Shown here piece by piece: positions 53,391 to 55,740 of a DNA stretch of 64,000 bases. How positions within the stretch are numbered: position 1 is the stretch's first letter; each line of letters starts with the position of its first letter. The notes under the pieces are model-generated. The model did not search any database and was not told the DNA's origin. It saw nothing but the letters and a program-made list of their open reading frames with translations. The stretch comes from Emticicia sp. C21. Its GTDB lineage: Bacteria > Bacteroidota > Bacteroidia > Cytophagales > Spirosomataceae. Where the stretch lies: the NCBI RefSeq assembly GCF_003418935.1, contig NZ_QVMT01000017.1, positions 1 to 64,000 of the forward strand, written 5' to 3'. A program made the translations under genes and the position numbers.

Positions 53391-53882
53391 ATGCTTAACG
53401 CTCAAAAAATATTGAAGTTTACTCTAAGTCTTATATGCGTTTTCTTCTTGTCCGTTTTATATACGCATGCGCAATATTATCCGGGCTATGGTCGTGGATA
53501 TGGTGGTGGATATGGCGGAGGCCTTAACAGATATGGAAGCGAATTTGATAATGTAAAACCAAAAGGTCCTTTAGACCCTGATGAACTGGCTAAAGAAGAG
53601 ACCAAATGGATGGTAAAAAAGCTAAAGCTAACTGATGAGCAGGAAATTCTGATATCATCTTTAAATGAAGACTACGCTTACCAACGTAAGGATTTATACG
53701 ACAGAATAAAAAAAGAGTTTGGTACTGAGCGCCCGACTCCGCAGCAAATCTCTGATGCAAAAGACAAGATGGCTGCCCTGGAAGAAAAGCAGAATAAAGA
53801 GTTAGAAAAAATACTCACCCCTGAACAATTCAAAATATATTCAGACAAGAAAGCGGATGCCAAGAAAAAAAATAAACAATAA
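53391..53882 (+). CDS. Spy/CpxP-like periplasmic protein with Gly/Tyr-rich segment
   Basis: This 163-residue protein has a signal peptide (about 1-27, ending YTHAQ). A low-complexity Gly/Tyr segment (about 28-50, YPGYGRGYGGGYGGG) follows. The rest is helical: LKLTDEQEILISSLNEDYA, KDLYDRIKKEFG, KDKMAALEEKQNKELEKIL and LTPEQFKIY. The LT.EQ..I motifs and the all-helical layout resemble the Spy/CpxP family (LTxxQ repeats) of periplasmic chaperone-like proteins, but similarity is only in pattern. It has its own promoter. The two-component genes upstream may regulate it. Confidence 0.7.
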   Translation: MLNAQKILKFTLSLICVFFLSVLYTHAQYYPGYGRGYGGGYGGGLNRYGSEFDNVKPKGPLDPDELAKEETKWMVKKLKLTDEQEILISSLNEDYAYQRKDLYDRIKKEFGTERPTPQQISDAKDKMAALEEKQNKELEKILTPEQFKIYSDKKADAKKKNKQ

Positions 53883-54697: not shown

Positions 54698-54933
54698 TGA
54701 ACTGAGCAGTTTTTTGTGCACATAATAAAAGTTAAAAACTAGAGCTTATTATATTCAAGACCGTGAGATAGCAATAAAAATTTAAAGATTAAATGATTTT
54801 ATTTCATTATATTTATATTTCTTTGCAGTAAAAACCCAAATAAATGAGTTAGGGAAAATAAATGGCCTATAAATAGAAAAAAGTTTTGTAGCTATATTTT
54901 TACCATTCGTCTATAAATTCTTTGAAATATAAA

Positions 54934-54965
54934 TTTTGCAGTATATAAAATTTGTATTAAATTTG
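54934..54965 (+). promoter_or_regulatory. Promoter of small-RNA candidate C
   Basis: TTTTG (54934-54938) and TAAATTTG (54958-54965) are 19 bp apart, matching the Bacteroidota consensus. Start near 54972. Confidence 0.5.
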
Positions 54966-54971
54966 GCTTAA

Positions 54972-55037
54972 GAAACGAGGAGATAAGGACCGATAACGAA
55001 TAAATTTCAAGAAAATTATAAAATTTCTTGTTTTTTT
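54972..55037 (+). ncRNA. Small-RNA candidate C (about 65 nt)
   Basis: Between a good promoter (54934-54965) and a hairpin CAAGAAA (55008-55014) / TTTCTTG (55024-55030) with a T7 tail lies a 65-nt segment with purine-rich 5' sequence. It has no ATG ORF of note. It shares no obvious sequence with candidates A and B. Evidence is promoter-plus-terminator architecture only. Confidence 0.35.
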
Positions 55038-55090
55038 ACCAGAGTTTTTTTTAAATTTGTCCTATCAAAAATAAATAATTGAAAAAATAC

Positions 55091-55122
55091 TTGTTTAGTT
55101 ATTAATTTCGTTTTTATATTTG
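55091..55122 (+). promoter_or_regulatory. Promoter of small-RNA candidate A
   Basis: TTG (55091-55093) and TATATTTG (55115-55122), 21 bp apart; start near 55129. A further TAAATTTG at 55052-55059, with a TTG 21 bp upstream, could be an alternative promoter. Confidence 0.5.
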
Positions 55123-55128
55123 AATGTG

Positions 55129-55286
55129 AAATCCTTAGTAAAGGAAATGGAGAGAATGGTAAGATTTCGGAGAAATGCTTTAAAGGATTAGACAATATTT
55201 TCATTAGATAAAAATATTAAAGATAAAAGTTGTGTGGATTTAGTAGCGGGAAAGGCTGGAGTCATTTACTCCAGTCCTTTTTTTTT
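55129..55286 (+). ncRNA. Small-RNA candidate A (first of a tandem related pair)
   Basis: The predicted transcript is about 155 nt. It ends in a terminator with CTGGAGT (55256-55262) pairing ACTCCAG (55268-55274), extended by GG/CC with a one-base bulge, and a run of nine T. Just before the hairpin, bases 55223-55240 (ATAAAAGTTGTGTGGATT) are identical to 55446-55463 of candidate B, and the AAAGGCTGG leading into the stem is also shared. No convincing ORF lies inside. Conservation of the element preceding a hairpin that differs in sequence but not in form is what one expects of paralogous small RNAs. Confidence 0.5.
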
Positions 55287-55365
55287 ATTTGCATTCTTGT
55301 ATTTTAATCCCTTTTTAACCTGCTATTAATAACAATTTTAATAGCTTCTTCTAATTTTGTGGCAG

Positions 55366-55505
55366 ACAAGACGAAAAGATTGTTAATCTCTCGCTTTCAA
55401 AAACTTTCAGATTCGATATTATTAAGTACGTAATATAGTTTTTTCATAAAAGTTGTGTGGATTCAATAGGACAAAGGCTGGGCAGTTTGACCCAGCTTTT
55501 TTTTT
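55366..55505 (+). ncRNA. Small-RNA candidate B (second of the tandem pair)
   Basis: A TAATTTTG -7 box (55352-55359) without a clear -33 element would start a transcript near 55366. It ends at a terminator with GCTGGG (55477-55482) / CCCAGC (55491-55496) and a run of nine T. It shares with candidate A the 18-nt block ATAAAAGTTGTGTGGATT (55446-55463) and AAAGGCTGG, 223 bp further on. Upstream parts differ. No ORF of note is inside. Confidence 0.5.
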
Positions 55506-55740
55506 GACAATATTCTGATTTCAGGATTGGCTTAGAACATATAAGGAAACTTCTTTCAATGTTTTTTAACTCATAGAAAAGCATAGAGGCTTTTAACCTG
55601 TTTTTAATTTCATATTAAAGCTATCTTCATGTAGCGCTCTCAACTTTGCTGTCGTCATAAATGGTATTATCAAATTTTAAATAAACTTTTTGAGATTTTA
55701 TTTTATCAAATTTATTAATTAACTTAAAATCAATATAACT

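Follow-up and report, generated by a model that had tools for sequence, protein, structure and literature searches.

Results

A gap of about 1.04 kb between flanking genes (54698-55740) in the window, the 64,000-nt stretch of Emticicia sp. C21 DNA analyzed here, holds two similar segments that each end in a T-tailed hairpin. Are these a pair of sibling small RNA (sRNA) genes, and, if so, what does their common block do? The sequence-only reading had proposed tandem, related sRNA genes in which a conserved seed precedes a terminator, and the block, the shared segment, the T9 hairpins, their stems, the 223-bp spacing, the promoter boxes, and the gap of roughly 1 kb were all found as it described them. 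An 18-nt block, ATAAAAGTTGTGTGGATT, starts at 55223 (copy A) and again 223 bp further on at 55446 (copy B); AAAGGCTGG is common to both copies, and each block is followed by a T9-tailed hairpin (T9 runs at 55278-55286 in A and 55497-55505 in B), the stem of which is CTGGAGT/ACTCCAG in A and CTGGG/CCCAG in B. The 18-mer has two exact matches in the whole 6.64-Mb genome, both in this pair, and its reversed control has none. In both copies the block plus hairpin folds better than its dinucleotide shuffles, with z scores of -2.9 (A) and -2.4 (B). The features of the locus, all on the plus strand, are as follows.

55091-55122, +: predicted sigma-A-type Bacteroidota promoter of sRNA A, TTG (55091)-N21-TATATTTG (55115-55122), called from sequence; TAnnTTTG is perfect in nearly all type A copies
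55127-55286, +: sRNA A, predicted primary transcript of ~160 nt, set by the promoter at 55115 and the T9 end at 55286; orthologues with an invariant core in eight genera
55223-55240, +: invariant block of sRNA A, putative seed, with AAAGUUGUGUGGAUU at 55226-55240; from genome and relative searches and alignment
55248-55286, +: intrinsic terminator of sRNA A, from the fold and from pairing and covariation over 20 orthologues
55352-55359, +: TAATTTTG, possible distal promoter box of sRNA B, called from sequence
55434-55445, +: TATAGTTTTTTC, directly 5' of the second block, either another candidate for the -7 box (TAGTTTTT at -13) or part of a transcribed leader; conserved in almost every type B copy, also in another genus
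55446-55505, +: sRNA B, predicted, ~60 nt from the block to the end of the T-run, longer if transcribed from 55352; covariance-model match at 55448-55505, 57.9 bits
55446-55463, +: invariant block of sRNA B, from genome and relative searches
55473-55505, +: intrinsic terminator of sRNA B, from the fold and from pairing over 8 orthologues

The conserved part of sRNA A spans approximately 55213-55286, and the covariance model matches it at 55225-55284 with 73.1 bits. Both upstream boxes lie where they had been placed; however, TAATTTTG at 55352 need not be what drives copy B, because the conserved TATAGTTTTTTCAT (with TAGTTTTT at -13) directly before the second block is an alternative.

Distribution of the RNA Family

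To place the pair among its relatives, we searched 59 related genomes for exact and one-mismatch matches. In most genomes of the same genus the pair was refound, its copies separated by 134-223 bp; G036, from one other genus, also has it (206 bp), and single copies turned up elsewhere. A scan of named genomes returned 56 stretches with AAAGTTGTGTGGATTYADTW in Emticicia, Lacihabitans, Jiulongibacter, Leadbetterella, and related MAGs; the hairpin was absent at about half a dozen other AAAGTTGTGTGGATTYADTW matches (L078, L093, L100, L101, L108, and L111), approximately the number estimated for chance. The test set beforehand for tandem sRNA genes of this design was a covariance-model search of related genomes for syntenic and dispersed copies with covarying stems, and such copies were obtained: with model R1, 71 copies reached 44 bits or more (strong copies hereafter, tallied by hand) in 30 of the 223 genomes of the taxonomic family, covering all 12 Emticicia genomes and seven related genera, for a total of eight. 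The window genome has two strong copies, and some others have about five. No copy of at least 44 bits was found outside the taxonomic family, either in 391 genomes of the order or in a 396-genome sample of the phylum, and the viral contigs, phages, and plasmids searched held none. No Rfam family matched the window at its gathering score, and relaxing the threshold gave no credible match, regional matches lying far below gathering scores. As judged from these genomes, only genera of one clade, in a single Cytophagales family, carry the RNA family, and the window pair represents two members of a larger, dispersed set whose terminators are exchangeable. We are highly confident that the Emticicia RNA family is real and new.

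These data also bear on whether the pair could have arisen by duplication of a single terminator left over from a decayed gene, a reading that we find scarcely credible. Two similar terminators do lie in a gene-poor 1-kb gap, and copy B is decaying in three genomes (G006 lacks the stem, and G004 and G010 have changes in both block and stem); on the other hand, conservation is higher in the unpaired block than in the stems, and unrelated loci in eight genera retain copies, comparative data that refute the remnant reading.

Stem Covariation and Member Types

Compensatory change had first been read from the different stems of A and B. That difference alone is no evidence for it; covariation is instead found within the orthologues of each copy. 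Among 20 distinct type A sequences, 99.7% of stem cells are paired, 13 cells are double-changed, and compensatory exchanges occur at three pairs; the covariation (0.177) exceeds that of all 500 shuffles and of all slid registers. The type B stem is 96.3% paired over its eight orthologues, with G-C, U-A, and C-G all seen at one pair and a covariation (0.239) that likewise none of 500 shuffles reached. Conservation, synteny, promoter position, and clade restriction are, like this covariation, established at the level of sequence.

Type A, the first copy in the window, occurs in nearly all family-bearing genomes and looks like one orthologous gene, in the order TTTAAAGATA, block, UAGUAGCGGGAAAGGCUGG, variable loop, and CCAG-U-CC-T-tract. 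In 29 of 30 distinct type A copies, the block is preceded at 46-116 nt by a perfect TAnnTTTG, and the intervening sequence is not conserved, so that the predicted primary RNA has a variable 5' leader. Type B, the second window copy, occurs in Emticicia and G036 and keeps the TATAGTTTTTTCAT described above. The terminator stems of the remaining members are unrelated, and the same 15 nt (AAAGUUGUGUGGAUU) recur in each, usually followed by TAGTAG. In 21 of the 29 distinct copies outside types A and B, TAnnTTTG (with at most one mismatch) starts at -12/-11 of AAAG, compared with a mean of 0.36 at other offsets; given this box, the block is the predicted 5' end of the RNA in dispersed copies. The window pair also has a TAnnTTTG-type box, at a distance different from that in the dispersed copies. 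The 15 nt served as the search key for part of the data, and their invariance thus arises partly by selection; a covariance-model search free of the exact-block requirement still found the block unchanged in most copies, with one or two differences in a handful. A leader peptide, GTG-TGG-ATT-TAG-TAG, was considered and ruled out, as type B does not keep it.

Placement of the block at about +1 to +16 in dispersed copies would suit a DNA operator near the transcription start, with the short transcripts as by-products. However, the type A block lies 46-116 nt 3' of the promoter box and directly before the terminator, and an operator has no need for a conserved, covarying terminator; we consider this reading very unlikely indeed.

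Genomic Context

The neighbors of the copies differ, and downstream genes are often on the opposite strand, which argues against a cis-acting leader and for action in trans. In the window, its closest relatives, and G036, A and B have an outer-membrane-like gene on one side and an OmpR/histidine-kinase pair on the other, whereas in other Emticicia they adjoin different genes; type C copies lie 5' of the DNA-alkylation-repair gene alkD, and type E copies between sdhB and rseP in Lacihabitans (the latter two genes identified by eye). Some copies are indeed followed, ~90-240 nt downstream, by a gene in the same orientation (alkD, rseP, or the OmpR-type regulator of the window), as expected if block and hairpin acted in cis on that gene as its leader or attenuator, but the type A sequence is kept across genera while its neighbors change, and a cis-acting role appears to us very unlikely.

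At 53391-53882 the window also encodes a small secreted protein that is rich in glycine and tyrosine and weakly similar to DUF4890/LTXXQ (below Pfam cut-offs); at most of the Emticicia loci examined, look-alike genes lie 5' of the sRNA pair.

Proposed Mechanism, Target Searches, and RNA-Binding Proteins

The best mechanism, which we hold to be probable, is that A and B are trans-acting, base-pairing sibling sRNAs with an invariant seed. Each predicted RNA would present AAAGUUGUGUGGAUU (usually followed by UAGUAG) in a mostly unpaired state, ahead of a Rho-independent terminator whose sequence would be free to change as long as pairing holds. The invariant stretch would pair with mRNAs in trans, probably near translation starts, and the siblings would supply the same seed from different promoters, with A, and possibly B, carrying 5' leaders and other members starting at the block. 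By pairing with messages, the sRNAs would probably switch other genes on or off. We infer transcription, action in trans, base pairing, targets, and help from RRM proteins; base pairing is argued from architecture and analogy, because the target searches found none.

In these searches, antisense words of the block showed no excess in 2 Mb of G002, a complete Emticicia genome, and neither did a global duplex scan of translation starts: at -11 to -14 kcal/mol, 71-83% of shuffles equaled or exceeded the ratio seen with the real sequence. Pairing with the SusC starts of the window genome (n = 30) was no better than that of shuffled RNAs, and the complement of the block in rRNA (a 7-nt Watson-Crick and a 14-nt GU run) is within the shuffled range. 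Three candidate targets in G002 resemble a DUF3820 gene (called by eye), a membrane-protein gene, and, near the sRNA locus, a lipoprotein gene; they were rejected, as their sites are not kept in relatives, a check that rests on plus-strand loci. The antisense word ACTAAAT(C) is enriched 5' of genes in 2 Mb of G002 relative to permutations; we do not claim this enrichment, because many words were tested and part of it stems from TAAATTTG promoter boxes.

Hfq (PF17209) was not found in 39 genomes, including that of the window, and control genomes were positive. RRM_1 has at least two matches in each of the 12 Emticicia genomes; the two RRM_1 proteins of the window genome (G000:C19:6587-6793 and G000:C23:266192-266401) are candidates for RbpB-like sRNA partners.

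A protein-binding role of the block is a serious rival to base pairing, as the invariant 15 nt, longer than most seeds, would also fit a protein-binding site. The block would then be a single-stranded decoy that titrates a global RNA-binding protein, for example an RRM_1 protein, as CsrB and RsmZ do with CsrA. Invariance of the 15 nt across paralogues and genera, complementary mRNA sites that are not in excess, and the presence of two RRM_1 proteins in the Emticicia genomes searched are consistent with such a decoy; however, each RNA has a single block, unlike known decoys, in which the site is repeated, some relatives that do not have the RNA (G012, G014, G016, and G017) still encode RRM_1 proteins, and RRM domains usually read only a few nucleotides. 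We regard the decoy as possible, if unlikely.

Comparison with Known Small RNA Systems

Within Bacteroidota, most knowledge of trans-acting sRNAs comes from Bacteroides, and some from Flavobacterium. For base-pairing siblings of the kind that we favor, the closest described architecture, by analogy, is that of FopS in Bacteroides. The FopS sRNAs of Bacteroides thetaiotaomicron (14 paralogues of ~65-70 nt) have an unpaired 5' seed, a terminator, and a canonical promoter, are bound by the RRM protein RbpB, and pair at susC translation starts (PMC11697453). Like FopS and GibS (PMC11697453, PMC7366714), the Emticicia RNAs are multicopy and intergenic, belong to Bacteroidota, and are of similar length, here ~55-65 nt from the block to the end; with FopS they further share an unpaired, conserved 5' stretch followed by a Rho-independent terminator, several paralogues per genome, canonical TAnnTTTG-type promoters, and an RRM-type RNA-binding protein encoded in the same genomes. 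Unlike FopS, they give no sign of pairing at susC starts, come from another clade, and have terminator stems largely unrelated to each other. Even at a relaxed threshold Rfam gave no FopS match to the Emticicia copies, a result that is informative only if the Rfam copy contains a FopS model.

OmrA and OmrB of Escherichia coli, likewise a tandem pair with a common regulatory segment, have a common 5' region that carries all characterized regulation, also share their last 35 nt, and are Hfq-dependent (PMC4211561). The window pair resembles them in lying near an OmpR-type two-component system. It differs in that A and B diverge in much of the stem, where OmrA and OmrB share their 3' ends, and in that no Hfq was found here; no sequence relation is claimed. 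LhrC of Listeria, AbcR of rhizobia, and the csRNAs of streptococci also comprise several paralogues per genome with a common regulatory motif (PMC4132741, PMC4211561), but belong to other phyla and use other motifs.

The kind of system is already known; the family is new and previously undescribed. It would be a second, apparently independent multicopy sibling-sRNA system in Bacteroidota, in a group in which Hfq was not found, and would show whether the FopS/RbpB-style architecture is general; it also raises the question of why 15 nt cannot change. The proposal is directly testable in E. agri 17J42-9, Emticicia sp. 21SJ11W-3, and Lacihabitans soyangensis.

Possible Copying of the Block as a Module

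The boundaries of the copies approximately match those of the transcripts (~60-85 bp, with a fresh promoter and flank), and some copies lie beside an integrase-like gene or a defense reverse transcriptase. We can envisage, as a long shot, a clade-wide RNA regulon in which the invariant 15-nt segment is copied round the genome as a module: the sRNA could spread by retro-copying or serve as an integration site, and the segment would be a fixed address for a conserved RNA or protein partner.

Several loci have unusual arrangements. In Jiulongibacter (L060/L106) and an Emticicia MAG (L050), copies lie beside integrase-like and HTH_17 genes and beside a relaxase-like gene (all called by eye except HTH_17), which suggests that family copies are carried on mobile elements. 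In Lacihabitans soyangensis (L117:1415-5178), two near-identical direct copies, 3.7 kb apart, flank an 1100-aa UG5-nitrilase-type defense reverse transcriptase; the repeated unit of ~85 bp begins with TACATC, just 5' of the predicted start of the RNA, a pattern reminiscent of an sRNA that served as an integration site or was copied through RNA. At L107:5218-6365, a cold-shock-domain gene sits between two copies separated by 1.09 kb; their similarity runs from AAAG to the T-run, and TAnnTTTG is missing from the second. In another genus of the taxonomic family (G162), locus L297 has an inverted repeat, AAAGTTGTGTAGATTTAGTAAACCTACACAACTTT, at ~2015 on the plus strand that resembles the block joined to its own complement.
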